Below, one piece after another: positions 4,685 to 29,203 of a stretch of 35,527 nucleotides of DNA (the first letter of the stretch is position 1; each line of letters begins with the position of its first letter). The notes under the pieces are model-generated. The model saw nothing but the letters and a program-made list of their open reading frames with translations. It was not told where the DNA came from and did not search any database. The stretch comes from Chloroflexota bacterium. Lineage in GTDB: Bacteria > Chloroflexota > UBA6077 > SHYK01. A program made the position numbers and the translations under genes. The stretch spans positions 1-35,527 of the forward strand of contig DASRDP010000097.1 in NCBI GenBank assembly GCA_035652535.1. Direction: 5' to 3'.

Positions 4685-5764
4685 TCAAAATGGCTCGAAC
4701 GACCGTAATGTCGGAATGACTCGCGTGCCGAACAGTGTGATCGAACGCCTGATCTCCTCGTCGGTCATGGCGCCAAAGTTCATCTCGCAGAGCAGCGTAT
4801 TGATCATCCCCTCGCGCGCGGCTTGTTGAATGCTTCGCGAAACCGTCTCGGGTGAGCCGACGAACGCGAGGTTTCGGTCGATGAGGTATTCGACGTCGGT
4901 AACGTGGCGCGCGATCTCGGCTGACGCGTGCTCGCCGCGCCGCTCAGCGTTTTCCGCAAGCTGCGGCCGCAGCACGCCATCCACTTCGCGGACGCCGAAC
5001 ACCTTCGTAAAGGCGTGCTCGAAGTGGGGCTTGGCATGCTCCACGGCGAGCTCATCCGTTTCATCGACGTATACCAGGGCCCAATAGCTGACCTTCGGCC
5101 TGTCAGGATGGCCGGCCTTGCGCCAGAGGTCCACGTAATCGCGATAGCGCGGCGCGGCCTCGTCCCGCGGCATGAAGAACACGTAACCGGTGTGGATTCC
5201 TTCCTGGGCGAGGAACTCCAGGGTCTTCGGATCGCGCGACTCGATCCAGATCGGCGGATGGGGTTTCTGAATCGGCTTCACTGACAGCCGCAGGTTCTCG
5301 TATTGGTGGAATTGACCTTTGAAGCTGAAGGGCCCTTCAGTGGCGAAGGCCGTCTTCACGATCGCGAGCGCTTCGTTGGTGATGGCACGTCGGTTTTCGA
5401 AGTCCGCCTTGTACGGCTGGAAATAGTCGGGTGCGATGCCTGAGACGAGGCCGAGGTCTAGCCGACCGCCCAACACGTTGTCGAGCACCGCGGCTTCCTC
5501 GACGATCCGCAACGGATCGTACAGGGGGACGATGTAGCCCATGGGCCCGATTCGGAGGCGCTTCGTGTGGGCGGCAGCCGCGGCGCAATAGACGGCAGGC
5601 GTGGGCATCAACGCCTCATACGGACGGAAGTGATGCTCGACGGCAAAGGCGTAGTCGAAGCCGTGCTCGTCGCACAGCGCGAGCTCATTCCAGAGCTGCT
5701 CATAGCGCTGCGCGGCGGTCATGCCCGGCTTGTTCCAGACGTGGGAGAAGTGCGCGAACTTCAT
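4685..5764 (-). CDS. LLM-class (luciferase-like) flavin-dependent oxidoreductase
   Basis: 359 residues, full length for the bacterial luciferase-like family. It begins MKFAHFSHVWNKPG and contains the family hallmarks AFAVEHHFRPY (the EHH substrate/flavin region), RLRIGPMGYIVPLYDPLR, LDNVLGGRLDLGLVSG and the KPIQKPHPPIWIES block. Members use reduced FMN or F420 to oxidise diverse organics; the substrate cannot be told from sequence. The start is fixed by N-terminal conservation, but there is no Shine-Dalgarno. Instead an imperfect inverted repeat lies directly upstream (5765-5814), so the mRNA may be leaderless or structurally controlled. It is a single gene; a second, diverged paralogue lies at 20663-21679. 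Confidence 0.9.
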   Translation of the reverse strand: MKFAHFSHVWNKPGMTAAQRYEQLWNELALCDEHGFDYAFAVEHHFRPYEALMPTPAVYCAAAAAHTKRLRIGPMGYIVPLYDPLRIVEEAAVLDNVLGGRLDLGLVSGIAPDYFQPYKADFENRRAITNEALAIVKTAFATEGPFSFKGQFHQYENLRLSVKPIQKPHPPIWIESRDPKTLEFLAQEGIHTGYVFFMPRDEAAPRYRDYVDLWRKAGHPDRPKVSYWALVYVDETDELAVEHAKPHFEHAFTKVFGVREVDGVLRPQLAENAERRGEHASAEIARHVTDVEYLIDRNLAFVGSPETVSRSIQQAAREGMINTLLCEMNFGAMTDEEIRRSITLFGTRVIPTLRSFEPF

Positions 5765-5814
5765 GCGCGCAGTGTAGTCCTCGGGCTGCTGTCCGGCAAA
5801 GGACTATGGCGCGC
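5765..5814 (-). promoter_or_regulatory. Imperfect inverted repeat abutting the LLM start codon
   Basis: GCGCGC at 5765-5770 pairs with 5809-5814, and TAGTCCT at 5775-5781 pairs with AGGACTA at 5800-5806. The element ends exactly at the ATG of the minus-strand LLM gene and occupies the place of the missing ribosome-binding site. It could be an operator or an mRNA hairpin. Confidence 0.4.
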
Positions 5815-5866
5815 GGACGTGCACAGATCCTCTCGGCTCCGCGAGGATTGCGGTGGGCCGCTCGGG

Positions 5867-6181
5867 CTATTGCGCCCGGATCAGGTTCCCCGCGGGGTCC
5901 AGCTCGACGAAGTGGTGGGCGCGGCCCTCGCGAAAGGCCTTGCACTGGTTCTCCGCCTGGTCGTCGACGGGCTGCCTGGGTTGGTGCGCCACGTCCGCCA
6001 CCCAGTCGGGGGCGAGGTCCTCGGCGATGCACGGGCCGCTGGCGAAGTCGGTTCCCCGCGCCCGCTCTTCGGCATACACCTGGCGCGCTCGGGCGATGGC
6101 GGCGTCCCGATCGGTTGACGCCACGCACGCCGCGACAACGTACGCGGTGGCGAACATGGGGATCGCGAGCCAGCGTCTCAT
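5867..6181 (-). CDS. Small conserved lipoprotein of unknown function
   Basis: 104 residues from ATG 6181. The N-terminus MRRWLAIPMF plus a hydrophobic stretch ending AYVVAAC is a lipoprotein signal with Cys19 as acylation site. The mature part is compact and looks conserved: SGPCIAEDLAPDWVADVAH, a PRQPVDD turn, ENQCKAFREG, and HFVELDPAGNLIRAQ at the C-terminus. Two Cys in the mature part (GPC and NQC) could form a disulfide. I recognise the DWVADVAHxPRQPVDxxxENQC pattern as a conserved hypothetical family without assigned role. No strong ribosome-binding site is visible. The gene lies between the molybdenum hydroxylase subunit and the LLM gene, all on minus, with a REP-like hairpin upstream. 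Confidence 0.6.
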   Translation of the reverse strand: MRRWLAIPMFATAYVVAACVASTDRDAAIARARQVYAEERARGTDFASGPCIAEDLAPDWVADVAHQPRQPVDDQAENQCKAFREGRAHHFVELDPAGNLIRAQ

Positions 6182-6232
6182 GCCGGGATTTTTGCCAATT
6201 GGTCGGCGCGTGTCTATGCGCGTGCCCTGCTC

Positions 6233-6265
6233 CCGCTCGTCCTCAGCTTGTCGAAGGACGAGCGG
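6233..6265. repeat. REP-like palindrome with the TTCGACAAGCT core
   Basis: An 11-bp perfect stem, CCGCTCGTCCT (6233-6243) and AGGACGAGCGG (6255-6265), with an 11-nt loop. On the minus strand the centre reads CCTTCGACAAGCTGAGG, a core that recurs as an interspersed palindrome in many high-GC bacteria. It lies 15 bp beyond the stop of the molybdenum hydroxylase gene and could also end its transcript. Confidence 0.65.
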
Positions 6266-6279
6266 AGGAGGCGAGTGGG

Positions 6280-8592
6280 CTACTCGATGTCCGCGAGCGC
6301 GCCCAGGCCGGCCAGGATCTTCTCCGGCGTAAAGGGCAGCGCGGTGAGACGCACGCCCGTCGCGTCGAAGATCGCGTTGGCGACCGCAGGGGCCACGCAC
6401 GGGATCGAGGTCTGGGCGATCCCCTTGGAGCCGAAGGGCCCCGGCCCATCGCCGTGCTCGACGATGATCGTCCGAAATTGCTCCGGGATGTCCGCCATGT
6501 GCGGCAGCCGATACTGGAAGGCATCCGCGTTCAGGAGCTGTCCTTCCTGGTAGCAGACCTCCTCGAAGAGCGTTGCGCCGAACCCCATCACCGCTCCGCC
6601 CTCGATCTGCCCCCGGGCCGAGTGGTAGTGCAGGATCTTCCCGGCGTCGGCGACCGCCGCGTACTGGATGACCTTCACCTCGCCGGTTTCCTTGTCCACC
6701 TCCAGCTCCACGGCGGCGACGCCCGGTGACCAGTGATCATGGTCGCCGAAGGTCACGCTCAGGACCGGCGTCCCGTGCACGTACTCGCCTCGGCTGGTGA
6801 TGGCGCCGCCGGCGGGCAGGCGCTCGGCGATCTCGCGGAGCTGCACGGTCTGCCCGTCCCTTCGCAGCGCGCCGTCCTCGACGCGCCATTCATCTGCCGC
6901 CCCGCCGTAGGAGCGCGCCGCCGCCTCGCACAGCTCCCGCTTCAGCGCCTCGCATGCGTTGCGCACGGCGTTGCCCATCTGGACCGTCGTCCGCTGCGAG
7001 CTGGTGCCGGAGAACATGAGCTGGTTCCCCGTGTCGGGCTCCCCTACATGCACGTCATCCTGAGAGATCCCGAGGCTGCGCGCGGCGACGATGCTGATCA
7101 TGGTATGGGCGCCCTCCCCCACGTCGGGCGCGTTGTGCGAGATGGTGACACTCCCGTCGCGCTCGAGGGTTGCGCCCGCCGTGGCGGACCCGATGGACGC
7201 GCCACGCCGGACGGAGACGGCCATCCCGCGCCCGCGCACGCGCCGCCCGTCCGTGCCGACGGGGATCGGTCCGGCTGTGCGCCCGTCCCATCCGATCGCC
7301 CGCACGGCCTGCTCCATCAGCTCCACGTAGTCGGTGTCCATCTTCGGGATCCGCGTCGCCGCTTCCTTGCCGTCGCGGATCCACGTGGCGGCCGGGATCG
7401 TCTCGCCTCGGGTCAAAAGGTTCTTGGCCCGCAGCTCGATCGGCGCGATCCCCAGGTGACGCGCCACGCTGTCCATCGCGCAGTCGATGCCGAACGAAGT
7501 CTGGTTCTTCCCCGTGTTGCGGAACATGGCCGCGGGCACCTTATTGGTATAGGCGGCGCAGGCCCGGACGCGGAAGTTGGGCAGGCGATAGCCTCCGAAA
7601 GCGGAGTTGACGGCGTTCGACGTGGCGATGCGCGTGCCCGTGAGGTACGCGCCGGCGTCGACCGCCAGCTCGACGTCCAGGCCGAGCAGCGTCCCGTCGC
7701 GCTTCACGCCGACTCGCGCCGTGTAGTCCATGGCGTGCCGCGCCGTGACCCGAAAGCTCTCCTCCTCGGTGGCGAGGAACTTCACCGGTCGTCCGATCCG
7801 CATGGAGAGCGCGGCGGCCGCCAGCATCTCCCGCGAGCTGTGCTTCGCCCCGAAGTTGCCGCCAACGTAGGGCACGTGGATCCGTACCTGCTCGGGGCTC
7901 ACGCCGAACAGCTCGTGCATCTCGCGGACGACGTCGAACGGGTTGTTGCTCGAGGACCACGCCTCGATCCCCTGGGCCGTGTAGTTGACGAGGACCGACA
8001 TCGACGGCTCGATGGGGTGGTGGTAGATGGTCGGCGAGGTGAAGGTCCCCTCGAAAACATAATCGGAGTCGCGCAGGGCCTGCTCCACGTCGCCCCACTC
8101 CAGCGTCTCCACGTGGGCGCGGTTCCCTTCGGCATCCGCGTGCAGGTTCGGCGCGTCGGGCGCAATCGCGACCTGCTGGGAGAACAGTGGCTCGAGGATC
8201 TCCCACTCGATATCCACCATGCTCGCGGCCGCGCGCGCCGTCCGGAGGTCCTCCGCCGCGACCATACCGATGATGTCGCCGTCGAACCGCGCGCAGTCCG
8301 TCGTGATGAATCGGTTGTCAGATGTCTCGGGCACGAGGTGCACGTCGTACTCACCGAGGGAGTTCGGGTCGAGGATCGCGACGACGCCGGGGAGCTTCGC
8401 CGCGCGCGACGAGTCCACCGACACGATGCGCGCGTAGGAGTAGGGGCTGCGGATGGCTGCCGCGTACACCGTGCCCGGCAGATTCGGCAGGTCCTCGACG
8501 TAGCGGGCGGCGCCGGTCACCTTCTCCTGAATGTCGACGCGCGGACGTTCTCCGATGGCGGCGGGGTCCACCGCCGACGGCTCAGCAGCCAT
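6280..8592 (-). CDS. Xanthine dehydrogenase-family molybdopterin-binding large subunit
   Basis: 770 residues, normal for the large (Mo) subunit of the xanthine dehydrogenase/CO dehydrogenase/aldehyde oxidoreductase family. The N-terminal hammerhead domain starts GERPRVDIQEKVTGAARYV. The cofactor-binding domain shows VPYVGGNFGAKHSSRE and the MFRNTGKNQ loop, in the place of the AYRGAGRPQ loop of form II enzymes. The C-terminus has VAPAVANAIFDATGVRL and PFTPEKIL. Where the family has KGxGE with the catalytic Glu, this protein reads KGIAQ, giving Gln727 (codon 6412-6414). No [2Fe-2S] small subunit or FAD subunit lies nearby, so it is an orphan large subunit. It may use distant partners, catalyse a different reaction, or be inactive. 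GAGGAGC lies about 12 nt before the ATG. Confidence 0.9.
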   Translation of the reverse strand: MAAEPSAVDPAAIGERPRVDIQEKVTGAARYVEDLPNLPGTVYAAAIRSPYSYARIVSVDSSRAAKLPGVVAILDPNSLGEYDVHLVPETSDNRFITTDCARFDGDIIGMVAAEDLRTARAAASMVDIEWEILEPLFSQQVAIAPDAPNLHADAEGNRAHVETLEWGDVEQALRDSDYVFEGTFTSPTIYHHPIEPSMSVLVNYTAQGIEAWSSSNNPFDVVREMHELFGVSPEQVRIHVPYVGGNFGAKHSSREMLAAAALSMRIGRPVKFLATEEESFRVTARHAMDYTARVGVKRDGTLLGLDVELAVDAGAYLTGTRIATSNAVNSAFGGYRLPNFRVRACAAYTNKVPAAMFRNTGKNQTSFGIDCAMDSVARHLGIAPIELRAKNLLTRGETIPAATWIRDGKEAATRIPKMDTDYVELMEQAVRAIGWDGRTAGPIPVGTDGRRVRGRGMAVSVRRGASIGSATAGATLERDGSVTISHNAPDVGEGAHTMISIVAARSLGISQDDVHVGEPDTGNQLMFSGTSSQRTTVQMGNAVRNACEALKRELCEAAARSYGGAADEWRVEDGALRRDGQTVQLREIAERLPAGGAITSRGEYVHGTPVLSVTFGDHDHWSPGVAAVELEVDKETGEVKVIQYAAVADAGKILHYHSARGQIEGGAVMGFGATLFEEVCYQEGQLLNADAFQYRLPHMADIPEQFRTIIVEHGDGPGPFGSKGIAQTSIPCVAPAVANAIFDATGVRLTALPFTPEKILAGLGALADIE

Positions 8593-8765
8593 GGCTGTGG
8601 GTGCTCCTCATAAGGTGCACCTCCACGGTGAGAGTTTCTCGGGCGAGTGCCGCAATCATATCCCAGGCCGTGCGGCCCAGCCAGATCCAGCCCCCTGACA
8701 TCTTCGGAGCAGTACTGTCCACATCCAACTCGGCATCTCCTCATCGAGAAGCATCTGGGGCGACG

Positions 8766-13200: not shown

Positions 13201-13458
13201 TCAGTCGCGTCGCGCCAACAATCGAACCGCCCGTCCAACCCGTTCGCGCATCTCGTCCGGCGGAAGGGTGTTCACGCACTCGTCGATGTGCGCGGTGATC
13301 AGCTCTTCCGTGGCGCGCCCGATGGCGTGGCGGACGGCGGTGAGCTGCGTGACGACGTCCTCGCAGCTCCGGCCCTCCTCGATCATCCTGATGATGCCGC
13401 GGAGCTGGCCCTCAGCCCGGCGCAGCCGATCTCGAACCCGCTCATCCTGCGTTTTCAT
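13201..13458 (-). CDS. CsoR/FrmR-family (DUF156) regulator, probably persulfide- or copper-sensing
   Basis: 85 residues from ATG 13458, with GAGGAAAGGG upstream. It is an all-helical metal-sensitive transcriptional repressor of the CsoR family: RLRRAEGQLRGIIRMIEEGR, then SCEDVVTQLTAVRHAIGRAT, and AHIDECV. Cys32, His57 and Cys61 match the C-H-C ligand positions of Cu(I)-sensing CsoR. The persulfide sensor CstR keeps the two Cys. The residues alone therefore allow copper sensing, but the gene is the last of a co-directional cluster with a rhodanese and a CstB-like persulfide dioxygenase, which argues for a CstR-like sulfur sensor. The likely operator is the palindrome at 15559-15583 in the cluster's promoter. 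Confidence 0.88.
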   Translation of the reverse strand: MKTQDERVRDRLRRAEGQLRGIIRMIEEGRSCEDVVTQLTAVRHAIGRATEELITAHIDECVNTLPPDEMRERVGRAVRLLARRD

Positions 13459-13499
13459 TCTGGCCCTTTCCTCACCACTCCAAGGCTCGTCCAGGCGGG

Positions 13500-14096
13500 T
13501 CATCCCACCTGGGCAGGTTGGGCGCCGGCGCTCAGCTGGGACACCGCCGCGGCGGGGTCGCAGCGCGCCCCCTGGTTATAGGGCAGCTTGCTGAGGAGCA
13601 TTCCCATGAGGCAGCTATTGGTGAGCGCGGCGGTGGTTAGCCCTGCTCCGATGGCCCCCGCGATCCATTTGGCTGGCTCGTAGGCGAGGCTGCCGAGCAC
13701 GCTCGCGAGGACGATCGCGCCCGCGACGAAGCGCACTTGGCGTTCCAGGTCCCAGCGCTGGCGGCCGCGCTGCACCGCGCCCCCGGCGGACTCCCAGGCC
13801 AGGATTCCACCTTCCAGCACCTGGGCGTCGCCGATTCCGGCTGCCGCCAGGAGGCGTTCTGCGTGATGGGCTCGATTTCCGGAACGGCAAATCAGCACCA
13901 CCGGTTGGCGAAGCCCGCGTGCCAGCTCATCCAGGTGGCCCTCAAGGGTATCGAGCGGCAGGTTCACCGATCCTGGGATGTGAATGGATTGGAACTCGGC
14001 AGCGGTCCGGACGTCGATGAGCGCGACCTGGCGTTCACGCCGGAGCCACTGGGCGAGCGTGGGACTGTCGAGAGAAGAAGGTCGACCACCGGCCAT
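13500..14096 (-). CDS. Rhodanese domain fused to DUF2892 membrane domain
   Basis: 198 residues from ATG 14096. N-terminal rhodanese: VALIDVRTAAEFQSIHIPGS and the active loop CRSGNRA with Cys70, which carries a persulfide in this family. The C-terminal part (about residues 115-170) has two hydrophobic segments and SCLMGMLLSKLPYN, the YgaP-like inner-membrane DUF2892 module. It therefore probably handles sulfane sulfur at the cytoplasmic membrane. It is the middle gene of the minus-strand sulfur cluster, 63 bp after the CstB-like gene and 41 bp before the regulator, so probably one transcript. Tail residues after PYN are low complexity. Confidence 0.9.
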   Translation of the reverse strand: MAGGRPSSLDSPTLAQWLRRERQVALIDVRTAAEFQSIHIPGSVNLPLDTLEGHLDELARGLRQPVVLICRSGNRAHHAERLLAAAGIGDAQVLEGGILAWESAGGAVQRGRQRWDLERQVRFVAGAIVLASVLGSLAYEPAKWIAGAIGAGLTTAALTNSCLMGMLLSKLPYNQGARCDPAAAVSQLSAGAQPAQVG

Positions 14097-14159
14097 TGGA
14101 TAGGATCCTCCAGAGGAATGTGCAAGCGACGAAAATTCGCGCGATCAATCGCAAACGGC

Positions 14160-15524
14160 TCAGGCAGCTTGGCCGCCGGAGGCCAGGCGCATGAGGTCGG
14201 GGATGCCGCCGCGGCTCACGACAATGGGGCGGAATCCCGCGCGCTCCAGGAGCCCCGCCGCGATGGTCGCCCGGTAGCCGCTGGCACAGGCGACCCACAC
14301 GGGCTCGTCCGGGGAGAGGCCATCCGGAACGCGGTCGACGAGGTCCGGAACATAGGTGTGGAACCCGACGCCCAGGTGTCCTGCGTCCCACTCGCCGGGC
14401 GAGCGCACGTCGAGGATCTGGCGCACCAGTCCCCGGCGGAGGGCATCCGCGGCCTCGGATACATCGACCGTCTTGAAGGCTGCCAGGGACTCCGGGGTCC
14501 TATTCAGAGGGTCGAGGTCCTGCACCACGCCCCGCACGTCGTCGAAGCCGATTCGCGCGAGCTGGACCATCGCCTCGGCGAGATCCTGGCCTGGATCGAG
14601 CACCAGCACGATGGGGCTGCCGAAGGGCAGGATCCAGCCAGCCCAGACGCCAAACTGCTCGTCGAGTTCGATTCCGATCGATCCGGGAATGTGGCCGGCG
14701 GCGAAGCGCTCGCGCGGGCGCGCGTCCACGACCCAGACTCGGTTTGCCAGGGTGCGGACGTCCCGCTCACTGAGGGACGGAACGGTTTGCGCGGGCATTG
14801 GCTGGGGGCCGAGGACGTTGATGGGCCCCATGGCGGCATAGTACGTCGGGTATGGCTGAAGTCCCGCGAGCTGAGCGCGCACGAACTCGGCCGCGTCGCG
14901 GTGAGCGAGCGCCGGATTGAACGCCTTCTCGTGCCCGATGGTCGAGGTGCCCCTCGATGCCAACGAGGCGGAGCAAAAGGACCCCGCGCCATGGGTCGGG
15001 TAGAGCGGCACCTCGTCCGGGAGAGCCGCGAGCCGCTGGAGCGAGCCGAATTGGAGGACGCCGAGCTGGCCGGCGCGCGCAGGCCCCAGGAGATCGGTCC
15101 GGCCCGCTGAACCGGCGAGGAGGCTTCCGCCAGAGAAGAGCGCCACCGGCCGGCGATCGAGCAGAACCAGATAGCTGACGTGCTCGGGCGTATGCCCTGG
15201 TGTGTGGATCGGCCGGATCGTGAGCTGTGCCTCGGCCTCCAGATCCTCGAGGTGGAAGGCTGGCACGTGCTCAAAGGCTGCGCCCGCGGCCGCAGGCAGC
15301 ACGAGCTGGGCCCGACTGCGACGCGCGGCCTCGCGCCCGCCGGAAACGTAATCGTTGTGCAGATGGGTTTCCAGGACGTGCCCGATCCGAATGCCGGCGC
15401 CGTCGGCGAAGTCGATGAACCGATCGACGTCGCGCTGAGGATCGACGAGGATGCCGACGCCCTCATGGGTCAGAAGGTAGGTGGTGTCGCCCAGCCCGGG
15501 GGTGCGAAATGCCGCGATGTCCAT
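14160..15524 (-). CDS. CstB-like persulfide dioxygenase: MBL fold plus two rhodanese domains
   Basis: 454 residues from ATG 15524, with AAGGAG upstream. Domain order equals that of CstB, which oxidises persulfides and transfers sulfur. The MBL domain (1-250) has ETHLHNDYVSGG (His54, His56, Asp58), HTPGHTPEH (His111) and LYPTHGAGSFC. The first rhodanese (about 255-335; VWVVDARPRERFAAGHIPGS) lacks the catalytic Cys, reading VLDPGQD, as in the pseudo-rhodanese of CstB. The second (about 350-450) has ACASGYRA with the active Cys. In the MBL domain, the family's TGD metal-ligand Asp reads SGG (residues 131-133), so the iron site may differ. It is the first gene of the cluster, behind the palindromic promoter 15555-15585, and is cytoplasmic. 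Confidence 0.9.
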   Translation of the reverse strand: MDIAAFRTPGLGDTTYLLTHEGVGILVDPQRDVDRFIDFADGAGIRIGHVLETHLHNDYVSGGREAARRSRAQLVLPAAAGAAFEHVPAFHLEDLEAEAQLTIRPIHTPGHTPEHVSYLVLLDRRPVALFSGGSLLAGSAGRTDLLGPARAGQLGVLQFGSLQRLAALPDEVPLYPTHGAGSFCSASLASRGTSTIGHEKAFNPALAHRDAAEFVRAQLAGLQPYPTYYAAMGPINVLGPQPMPAQTVPSLSERDVRTLANRVWVVDARPRERFAAGHIPGSIGIELDEQFGVWAGWILPFGSPIVLVLDPGQDLAEAMVQLARIGFDDVRGVVQDLDPLNRTPESLAAFKTVDVSEAADALRRGLVRQILDVRSPGEWDAGHLGVGFHTYVPDLVDRVPDGLSPDEPVWVACASGYRATIAAGLLERAGFRPIVVSRGGIPDLMRLASGGQAA

Positions 15525-15554
15525 CGGGACTCCTTGCCGTGAGCTGCTGCGCAG

Positions 15555-15585
15555 ATTATATACCAATACCAGGTATGGGTATAAT
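15555..15585. promoter_or_regulatory. Divergent promoter with 25-bp palindromic operator (CsoR/CstR-type candidate)
   Basis: A near-perfect palindrome spans 15559-15583 and centres on 15571. Its core is ATACCAGGTAT (perfect), flanked by TATACC and GGGTATA. The minus strand has a perfect -10 TATAAT (15560-15555) leading to the CstB-like gene at 15524. The plus strand also has TATAAT at 15580-15585, facing the MmgE/PrpD gene. The palindrome fills the -10/-35 region of both, where a repressor would block both directions. A/T-flanked C-tract/G-tract palindromes are typical of the CsoR family. Confidence 0.7.
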
Positions 15586-15754: not shown

Positions 15755-17131
15755 ATGAGCGCATCGAGGCAACCCGCGACGCCTGGCGTCACCGTCGCGC
15801 TCGCCGAGTACGCGGCGAGGGTGACGTTCGAGTCCCTGCCGTCCGCCGTTGTCATTGCCGTGAAGCGCCTCATCCTGGATTCGTTGGGGACGGCGCTCGC
15901 GGCGGGGACCATGGGGGATGGGTGCCGCGAGCTGGTAGACATGGCGGTCGCGTGCGGGGGGCGCCCCCAGAGCACGATCCTCGGATTCGACCGCAAGGGT
16001 CCGGCGCCGCTCGTCGCGTTGGCGAACGGCGGGTTGGTCCACGCGCTGAACTATGACGCCGGGGGACCGGGACACTTGGGCGTCGTTGCTCTCGTCGCGC
16101 CGCTGGCCGCTGCGGAATACGTTGGCGGTGTATCGGGCAAAGAGCTGATCGCGGCATCCGCCACCGCGTGCGAAATCACGGCGCGCATGTCCGTCGCGGC
16201 GCACGGGGCGGACATCCGCGGTGAGCTGCCCTGGCTCGCGGGTCAGTTCCTGAGCTACGTGGGGTCGGCCGCCGGCGCTGGACGCGCCCTCCGGTTGTCG
16301 CCCCTCCAGATGCACAGCGCCATCGCGCTCGCCGTCATGCAGGCCGCCGGCACGCGTCAGGTCGTGCTTGACGGCGATCCGCCGGCCAAAGCCGTCTACG
16401 GCGCGTTTCCCAACCAAGGCGGCATGCAGGCGGCGCTCCTGGCCCAGTTGGGGCTCCGCGCCGATTGCGCGGCGCTCGAGGGCAGCGGTGGCTTCTACGC
16501 TGCCTTCCTCGGCGATAGCAGCCGCGCGGCCGGGATCGCCGACGGACTGGGGGATCGCTACGTCCTGGCGGGTGTGCAGTTCAAGGCGTGGCCGACGAGC
16601 GGTGTCGTCGCGCCATACGTCGAAGCTGCCCTGAACCTCCGTCGGACCCACGGTTTGTCCGCGGATGTCGTCGCGCGCGTGGAATTCACCGGTGGAGAGC
16701 GGATGCGCCACTGGTGCGAGCCGCTAGAGGAGCGGCGAGCCCCGGCGAGCGGCGCGACGGCGGCCAACAGCATCTTCTTCGGCATCGCCAATGCGCTCGT
16801 CCACGGTGCAGTGACGCTCGAGCGCTTCTCACCCGCGGGCCTAAGCGACCCGAGCGTGCGCCGCCTCATGGCGCGGACTGAGTACACGGTGAACGCGGAC
16901 CCGTCGGAGCACGCGGCGCTGCGTGTCTGGACGACGCGCGGGCCCGCGGTTGAGGCGCCGGTGGCGGCGAGCGCGAGCCCCGTGACCGAAGCCCAGCTCG
17001 TCGCCAAATTCGTCGACTGTGCGCGGTATGCGCCGCGCCCGATGGAAGCGGACCGGGTGCAGCGGCTCGTGGAGCTGGTTCTGGACCTCGAAGCAGTGGC
17101 CGACGTCAGATCTCTGACGGAGCGTCTCTAG
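15755..17131 (+). CDS. MmgE/PrpD family protein (2-methylcitrate dehydratase-like)
   Basis: 458 residues from ATG 15755, with GGAGGGG upstream. The N-terminal helical domain has VKRLILDSLGTALAAG and ANGGLVHALNYDAGG, the block where PrpD proteins carry the HxxDFDD-type motif. The middle has EITARMSVAAHG and SPLQMHSAIALAVMQAAG. The C-terminal domain includes VQFKAWPTSG. PrpD dehydrates 2-methylcitrate, but this broad family includes members with other substrates such as cis-aconitate decarboxylase. The usual motif is degenerate here (NYDAGG), so substrate and activity are unclear. No other methylcitrate-cycle gene is present. It is divergent from the sulfur cluster across the shared promoter. 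Confidence 0.85.
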   Translation: MSASRQPATPGVTVALAEYAARVTFESLPSAVVIAVKRLILDSLGTALAAGTMGDGCRELVDMAVACGGRPQSTILGFDRKGPAPLVALANGGLVHALNYDAGGPGHLGVVALVAPLAAAEYVGGVSGKELIAASATACEITARMSVAAHGADIRGELPWLAGQFLSYVGSAAGAGRALRLSPLQMHSAIALAVMQAAGTRQVVLDGDPPAKAVYGAFPNQGGMQAALLAQLGLRADCAALEGSGGFYAAFLGDSSRAAGIADGLGDRYVLAGVQFKAWPTSGVVAPYVEAALNLRRTHGLSADVVARVEFTGGERMRHWCEPLEERRAPASGATAANSIFFGIANALVHGAVTLERFSPAGLSDPSVRRLMARTEYTVNADPSEHAALRVWTTRGPAVEAPVAASASPVTEAQLVAKFVDCARYAPRPMEADRVQRLVELVLDLEAVADVRSLTERL

Positions 17132-28334: not shown

Positions 28335-29203
28335 CCGAATCCCTCGCCTATGCCCGCGACATCCGCGTCGATTATCCGGACGGCCGCGCCGTCCGGATCG
28401 GCGGCATCCCGTTCGTCGTTCGCCGAGGCGAACGCGTCGCGATCGTGGGACCGAACGGGAGCGGGAAGAGCACCCTGATTCGCGCGCTCGTCGGGCTGCT
28501 TCGGCCATCCGATGGCGAGATCCGCGTGTTTGGCCATGACCCGTCGCGGGAGTTCGACGCGATTCGGCTGCGCATCGGGGTGGTGCTTCAGGACGTCGAC
28601 GCGCAGCTCCTCGCGCCGACGGTGGCGGAGGACATCGCGTTCGGGCTGGCCGGGCGCGGACTGACCGCGGCGGAGGTGAACGCGCGCGTGGCGGAGGTCG
28701 CCGACTCCTTCGACCTCGGCGAGGTCCTCAACCGGGTGCCCCACTATCTGTCGGGTGGCGAGCGCCGGAAGTTGGCGCTGGCCGGCGCGCTGGTGACGAA
28801 CCCCGAGCTTCTCGTGCTCGACGAGCCTTTTGCCGGACTCGACCCACGCTCACGCGCCGAGCTCATCGACCTCGTTCGGTCCGAGCACGCGCGCCGCCGG
28901 ATCTCTCTATTGCTGACAACCCATGAGGTTGAGGAGCTTCCGCGGCTCGTGGACACCGTGTACGTGATAGCGGAGGACGGCTCTCTGGCCGCTCGGTCTA
29001 CCCCGGACGAGATTTTCCAGATGCACGATCTGCTCGAACGGTGTAACGTGAGGCCGCCTCAGCTGGCGCGGCTGCACGCCCTGCTTCGGGCGGCCGGGGC
29101 GGAGCTTCCGAGGTTCGAAAATCCGGAGGCGGCAGCGGAGGCGATCATGGATTGGGCAGGACGCCCGAGGACGGACTCGATGGGAGGTCAATCGAAAGGA
29201 TGA
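28331..29203 (+). CDS. cbiO: CbiO-like ATPase (A component) of ECF importer
   Basis: 290 residues from GTG 28331, again overlapping the previous stop by 4 nt. Full ABC ATPase: Walker A VGPNGSGKST (about 39-48), Q-loop VVLQDVDAQLLAPTVAEDIA, signature LSGGERRKLALAGAL, Walker B LLVLDEPFAGLDP and H-loop TTHEVEEL. The family-typical LLAPTVAEDIAFG is a hallmark of cobalt/nickel ECF ATPases. One ATPase gene serves the complex, so it should act as a homodimer. The C-terminal 60 residues (after VYVIAEDGS) form the usual extension. Its stop overlaps the start of the cNMP/DUF1003 gene. Confidence 0.95.
   Translation: MTESLAYARDIRVDYPDGRAVRIGGIPFVVRRGERVAIVGPNGSGKSTLIRALVGLLRPSDGEIRVFGHDPSREFDAIRLRIGVVLQDVDAQLLAPTVAEDIAFGLAGRGLTAAEVNARVAEVADSFDLGEVLNRVPHYLSGGERRKLALAGALVTNPELLVLDEPFAGLDPRSRAELIDLVRSEHARRRISLLLTTHEVEELPRLVDTVYVIAEDGSLAARSTPDEIFQMHDLLERCNVRPPQLARLHALLRAAGAELPRFENPEAAAEAIMDWAGRPRTDSMGGQSKG

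Follow-up and report, generated by a model that had tools for sequence, protein, structure and literature searches.

A putative persulfide-responsive operon with a doubled CsoR-family operator in an uncultured Chloroflexota class

When a CsoR-family regulator is encoded beside sulfur enzymes and also carries the ligand residues of a copper sensor, which signal does it sense, and how would it act on its own promoter? We addressed this question for a three-gene locus of a Chloroflexota bacterium (GenBank assembly GCA_035652535.1, contig DASRDP010000097.1). The window, i.e. the whole stretch of DNA that was analyzed, is 35,527 nucleotides long. A first-pass annotation of this DNA described a CsoR-family regulator, a rhodanese-DUF2892 protein, and an MBL-rhodanese-rhodanese protein as one unit, and the gene order, protein families, and gaps fit that description (Table 1). 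The gaps measure 63 nt between the MBL and rhodanese-YgaP_TM genes, and then either 41 nt or an overlap, depending on the start of the regulator. The regulator ATG at 13458 has AGGAAAGG upstream, fits the alignment with homologues, and yields the earlier His57 numbering; the alternative ATG at 13503 overlaps the stop of the rhodanese-YgaP_TM gene. The neighboring genes encode a CCA-adding enzyme (convergent) and MmgE/PrpD (divergent, ATG at 15755), so the three sulfur-operon genes form a free-standing unit. From this layout, we infer that the three minus-strand genes are cotranscribed. The small operon contains no CstA, TauE, or SQR gene, and probably removes toxic reactive sulfur.

Table 1. 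Features of the sulfur operon and its promoter region (positions are those of the window)
Feature	Position	Strand	Details
MBL-rhodanese-rhodanese gene	14160..15524	-	454 aa; Pfam Lactamase_B + Rhodanese; ATG start
Shine-Dalgarno-like AAGGAG, ahead of the MBL-rhodanese-rhodanese ATG	15530..15535	-	
Rhodanese + YgaP-like TM gene (formerly DUF2892)	13500..14096	-	198 aa; PF00581 + PF11127
CsoR-family regulator gene	13201..13458	-	85 aa; PF02583; Cys32/His57/Cys61; longer alternative start 13503
Operon promoter, -10 hexamer TATAAT	15555..15560	-	perfect match; shares 2 bp with the operator
Putative operator	15559..15583	.	interlaced pair of ATACC-n7-GGTAT sites, at 15560-15576 and, 6 bp further on, at 15566-15582

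The regulator matches the CsoR/RcnR family (PF02583) with 84.6 bits, against a cut-off of 22.8. As expected for the CstR subfamily, Cys32 and Cys61 are 29 residues apart and the gene shares its operon with sulfur genes. However, CstR-type regulators have no His at the copper-ligand position, whereas His57 is present here in the 85-aa frame from ATG 13458, as the first-pass annotation had stated. The equivalent residue is Asn in 7mq1 and Gly in the actinobacterial relatives. The closest solved structure is 7mq1 (E 1e-17), which is named csoR in the PDB and which we take to be S. pneumoniae CstR; the copper-sensing CsoR 4m1p matches with an E-value of 2.8e-10. The earlier description of a CsoR/CstR-like regulator is supported, and the protein presumably acts as a repressor. 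Its nearest relatives, at 56–63% identity, belong to its own class or to other Chloroflexota. The regulator tree, which has few alignment columns and weak support around the window row, places that row among Chloroflexota relatives, with Gly-type actinobacterial proteins in a separate starred clade and Tyr-Cys copper types elsewhere. Judged by their titles, literature matches for CstR in Chloroflexi concern bioreactors, where CSTR stands for stirred tank.

Related regulators show patterns of their own. CsoR-family regulators with thioredoxin partners are found across Chloroflexota (L044, L202, L203, L204, L205, L208, L210), several with ATACC-n7-GGTAT upstream. The second Cys is replaced by Ala in L204, L207, L208, L209, L211, L212, and L213, some of which adjoin thioredoxin; judged by their residues, such single-Cys proteins could not form a dithiol bridge or a C-H-C copper site. 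DUF302 genes are a recurrent, unexplained neighbor of non-copper CsoR-family regulators (L035, L042, L200).

At the promoter, the first-pass annotation had noted a perfect TATAAT overlapped by a 25-bp palindrome, and both elements were located. The palindrome, TATACCAATACCAGGTATGGGTATA, is symmetric at 22 of 25 positions and spans the -35 slot and the entire 17-bp spacer and runs two bases into the -10 hexamer. The -10 hexamer stands alone: no recognizable -35 is present in the operon promoter (best match 3/6), and a σ70 promoter call was dropped because none was found. The strength of the bare palindrome was likewise discarded as evidence, since an equal 22/25 palindrome appeared in 7 of 20 shuffles; a second one lies in the window at 28374–28398. 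The 25-bp palindrome is two overlapping 17-bp sites, arranged as ATACC-N-ATACC-N-GGTAT-N-GGTAT. This arrangement occurs once in the window and once in the 4.45-Mb genome, and none of 100 shuffles matched it at up to three mismatches. The 399 other Chloroflexota genomes contain no doubled site at 0–1 mismatches and three matches at two mismatches, which is the control rate. Close relatives lack the doubled site, and nothing closely resembling the window module occurs in its family, so conservation lends this exact operator no support. The earlier proposal of an operator at the promoter is thus refined into two sites, with the operator role itself predicted from their position. A second perfect TATAAT (15580–15585, plus strand) lies at the opposite edge, directed at the MmgE/PrpD gene, and the operator may act on this divergent promoter as well.

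A wider regulon was rejected, since the genome has no further exact ATACC-n7-GGTAT site and one-mismatch matches occur only at the control rate (25 versus 22). Around CsoR-family genes, the single site recurs: it lies within 600 bp of 19 of the 48 non-Gly-type genes analyzed. Of these 19, 13 are of the His type, 3 of the Tyr type, and the remaining three of the Arg, Gln, and Asn types; some are copper-type genes. By our own estimate from base composition, far fewer than one such co-occurrence would be expected by chance. The loci of MBL-rhodanese homologues are mainly actinobacterial, and where a CsoR gene was detected in them, 51 of 56 sites have n6 spacing. Spacing was rejected as a marker of the signal, given that copper-type CsoRs, too, can have n7 sites nearby; it follows lineage, with n7 in Chloroflexota and n6 in Actinomycetota. 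The palindrome could also serve another factor, with the operon constitutive or otherwise controlled, and the second CsoR of the genome could in principle use it. However, that protein has its own, different palindrome, while the half-sites in the window match the CsoR-family consensus of the lineage and sit exactly on the promoter of the regulator's own operon. We consider it most improbable that the regulator does not act on this promoter.

The first-pass annotation had suggested that the regulator responds to copper or to both signals. Cys32, His57, and Cys61 are indeed all three first-shell ligands of copper CsoRs. With this C-H-C set the regulator might sense Cu(I), alone or together with sulfur, and the n7 sites found near some copper-type CsoRs of Chloroflexota (L024, L028, L029) would fit. 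However, in the window regulator the residue before the first Cys is Ser and that at Cys+16 is Ala. The second CsoR of the genome, on contig C74, combines Tyr-Cys, His, and Cys with a Glu at Cys+16. We take this Tyr and Glu to be the second-shell Tyr35 and Glu81 of M. tuberculosis CsoR. The second CsoR gene lies upstream of genes for a copper-type P-ATPase (CopA) and a heavy-metal chaperone (CopZ-like), with a C/G-tract palindrome at its start. Because of this separate CsoR-CopA-CopZ operon, the copper task is already filled in this genome. No copper exporter or chaperone is encoded in the window operon, and there is no copper gene among the scanned neighbors of the non-copper relatives of the regulator. 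The suggestion of copper sensing therefore finds little support; copper control of the operon is disfavored, and a Cu(I) or dual sensor has only a slim chance of being correct. His57 is most readily explained as a trait of the lineage, although the protein may still bind Cu(I).

For sulfur control, genomic context provides good support. The genes next to the closest non-copper relatives encode thioredoxin, DUF302, and Cons_hypoth698, and also TauE together with an Asp-type CstB, and it is the thioredoxin, DUF302, TauE, and CstB neighbors that lead to the sulfur reading. Sulfur is a likely signal and copper an unlikely one. Counting against sulfur are the C-H-C set created by His57 and the behavior of Thermus TTHA1953, a regulator with a comparable doubled site that does not respond to NaHS in vitro (PMC10318464). 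TTHA1953 does leave DNA on plain oxidation (PMC10318464), and many related Chloroflexota regulators adjoin thioredoxin rather than persulfide enzymes. Both observations would suit a sensor that responds more generally to thiol redox state or electrophiles (disulfide stress, oxidants) and for which sulfur enzymes are just part of the task. However, sulfane-sulfur enzymes are the only genes seen under the window operator, the exact n7 site being confined to it. We give a general redox sensor a small but real chance, and prefer a regulator that responds to persulfides.

The MBL protein has an MBL domain followed by two rhodanese domains, the architecture of CstB and type III persulfide dioxygenases. 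It matches 3tp9 with an E-value of 5e-67, and its structure model has a TM-score of 0.88 to 3tp9 (query length) and 0.85–0.86 to 3r2u (target length). HLHNDY and TPGH supply the HxHxD[F/Y] motif and the second His ligand, and the catalytic Cys of the C-terminal rhodanese is present (Cys413, in CASGYR). The third iron ligand is missing, as FSGG has Gly at the Asp position. The earlier term "CstB-like" thus holds for the fold and the rhodanese Cys, but not for the metal site. Persulfide dioxygenases bind iron through two His and one Asp, and the A. caldus enzyme is inactive when this Asp is changed to Ala (PMC6060420), so the missing ligand argues against the sulfur reading. Gly replaces Asp in 98 of 111 aligned MBL-rhodanese sequences; among aligned homologues, HND mostly goes with Gly and HAD with Asp (exceptions L070 and L158). 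This Gly-for-Asp subfamily, usually with HND for HAD, is large (L068–L073, L086–L168, L169–L196). ScPDO of S. coelicolor oxidizes GSSH (PMC7533328). A Streptomyces locus with the gene order of the S. coelicolor circuit (L157) has the Gly form, and ScPDO probably belongs to the same Gly-type subfamily as the window enzyme. By analogy, persulfide dioxygenase activity is plausible without the Asp ligand. We predict that the MBL protein is a persulfide dioxygenase-rhodanese of the CstB/type III architecture, from a subfamily with Gly-Gly for Gly-Asp. The second enzyme resembles YgaP, with a rhodanese active-site loop (CRSGNR) and a YgaP-like TM domain.

Enzymes and regulator point to different origins. 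The closest relatives of the enzymes are from Actinomycetota (61%), and those of the regulator from Chloroflexota (60%). In the MBL protein tree, the window enzyme is one of 12 rows that form a starred clade, all other members of which are from Actinomycetota (one row is a Nonomuraea plasmid record), and the homologues of its class-mates are far off. For the membrane rhodanese, too, the best matches are actinobacterial, and in several loci its gene immediately follows the MBL gene. In Actinomycetota, the pair adjoins Gly-type CsoR-family genes with ATACC-n6-GGTAT sites. MBL-rhodanese homologues are present in 138 of 400 Chloroflexota genomes, and the short flanks of the 28 such loci scanned contain no CsoR gene. 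These comparisons are most easily explained if the enzyme pair was transferred, or derives from a shared source, and was combined with a local regulator and a local type of operator. The module therefore looks chimeric, combining an actinobacterial-type enzyme pair with a Chloroflexota regulator and operator type. A misplaced contig is unlikely, since the best matches of ThrS on the same contig are two genomes of the same family (71–76% identity). The phylum is Chloroflexota in the sense of GTDB, as loci from it show 100% identity to named Ktedonobacterales records; the genomes searched include 29 of the class. Two further loci should be mentioned. An Acidimicrobiia MAG (L086) has tandem MBL-rhodanese frames (4770–6338 and 6342–8645); of all homologues found, the first is nearest to the window enzyme. 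A contig labelled Heimdallarchaeota (L148) has an MBL-rhodanese that groups with actinobacterial ones, and its label is possibly a binning error.

Gene order, protein families, the Cys pair, and the architecture and position of the operator can all be read from the DNA; from these we infer how the operon is transcribed, what binds its promoter, which signal is sensed, and what is catalyzed. We consider it likely that the operon is a persulfide/polysulfide detoxification unit under negative autoregulation. The reduced regulator would bind both interlaced ATACC-n7-GGTAT sites over the -35 slot and spacer, blocking RNA polymerase. Rising persulfides would form sulfur bridges between Cys32 and Cys61 of neighboring subunits, as in CstR, taking the repressor off DNA. 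The MBL-rhodanese protein would then oxidize persulfide while the membrane rhodanese moves sulfane sulfur, and the regulator, encoded last in the operon, would be replenished and shut the switch again. A more specific version is doubtful: a His-containing CstR-like sensor, with one tetramer per DNA face on the interlaced operators, controlling a persulfide dioxygenase subfamily with two protein ligands to iron, in a module of actinobacterial enzymes spliced onto a Chloroflexota regulator. If true, it would add two new mechanistic features, a native operator that is doubled and an active site with two protein ligands.

It is credible that this is a known kind of reactive-sulfur operon with variant features, namely the doubled operator, the His-type CstR-like regulator, and the actinobacterial-type enzymes. 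As such, it would extend persulfide-type CsoR control to an uncultured Chloroflexota class, and it suggests that copper sensing should not be concluded from a His at the copper position alone. The two sites with a 6-bp shift, near the doubled site of TTHA1953, give a clear prediction for how small repressors use DNA, and a large supposed persulfide dioxygenase subfamily without the conserved Asp makes the two-His-one-carboxylate requirement directly testable.

Among known systems, the ScCsoR-ScPDO-TauE-rhodanese circuit of S. coelicolor shares a two-Cys CsoR-family repressor, a PDO-rhodanese, a rhodanese, and an ATACC...GGTAT operator with the window. There, polysulfide releases ScCsoR through Cys37/Cys66 (PMC7533328). 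The Streptomyces locus has the gene order of this circuit (pdo-tauE-CsoR-rhodanese) and carries the enzyme subfamily of the window. However, the S. coelicolor sites are single and n6 rather than interlaced and n7, CsoR and rhodanese are divergent, and Streptomyces regulators have Gly in place of His57. The S. aureus CstR-CstA-CstB system likewise combines a CsoR-family regulator and an MBL-rhodanese-rhodanese enzyme (3r2u) in a sulfur context, but its regulator has no His, its enzyme retains the Asp ligand, and CstA, TauE, and SQR have no counterpart in the window operon. Copper-sensing CsoRs share PF02583 and the Cys-His-Cys residues, whereas the window regulator lacks Tyr-Cys, Glu at Cys+16, nearby copper genes, and a G/C tract in its operator. 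For Thermus TTHA1953, the consensus TACNNTACNNNNGTANNGTA comes from sites selected in vitro (PMC10318464) and can be read as a pair of TAC-n9-GTA sites, one displaced from the other by 5 bp. By this reading of ours, the doubling offset differs from the 6 bp of the window. TTHA1953 controls distant Sox genes, whereas the window regulator lies within its own operon. The Cys spacing of 29 is common to the window regulator (32/61), ScCsoR (37/66), and TTHA1953 (39/68; PMC10318464). Both TTHA1953 and the window regulator have a doubled TAC/GTA operator without long G/C tracts, in a genome whose second CsoR uses a G/C-rich site. With its two CsoRs, this Chloroflexota genome resembles Thermus, where the sites of TtCsoR are distinct from those of TTHA1953 (PMC10318464).
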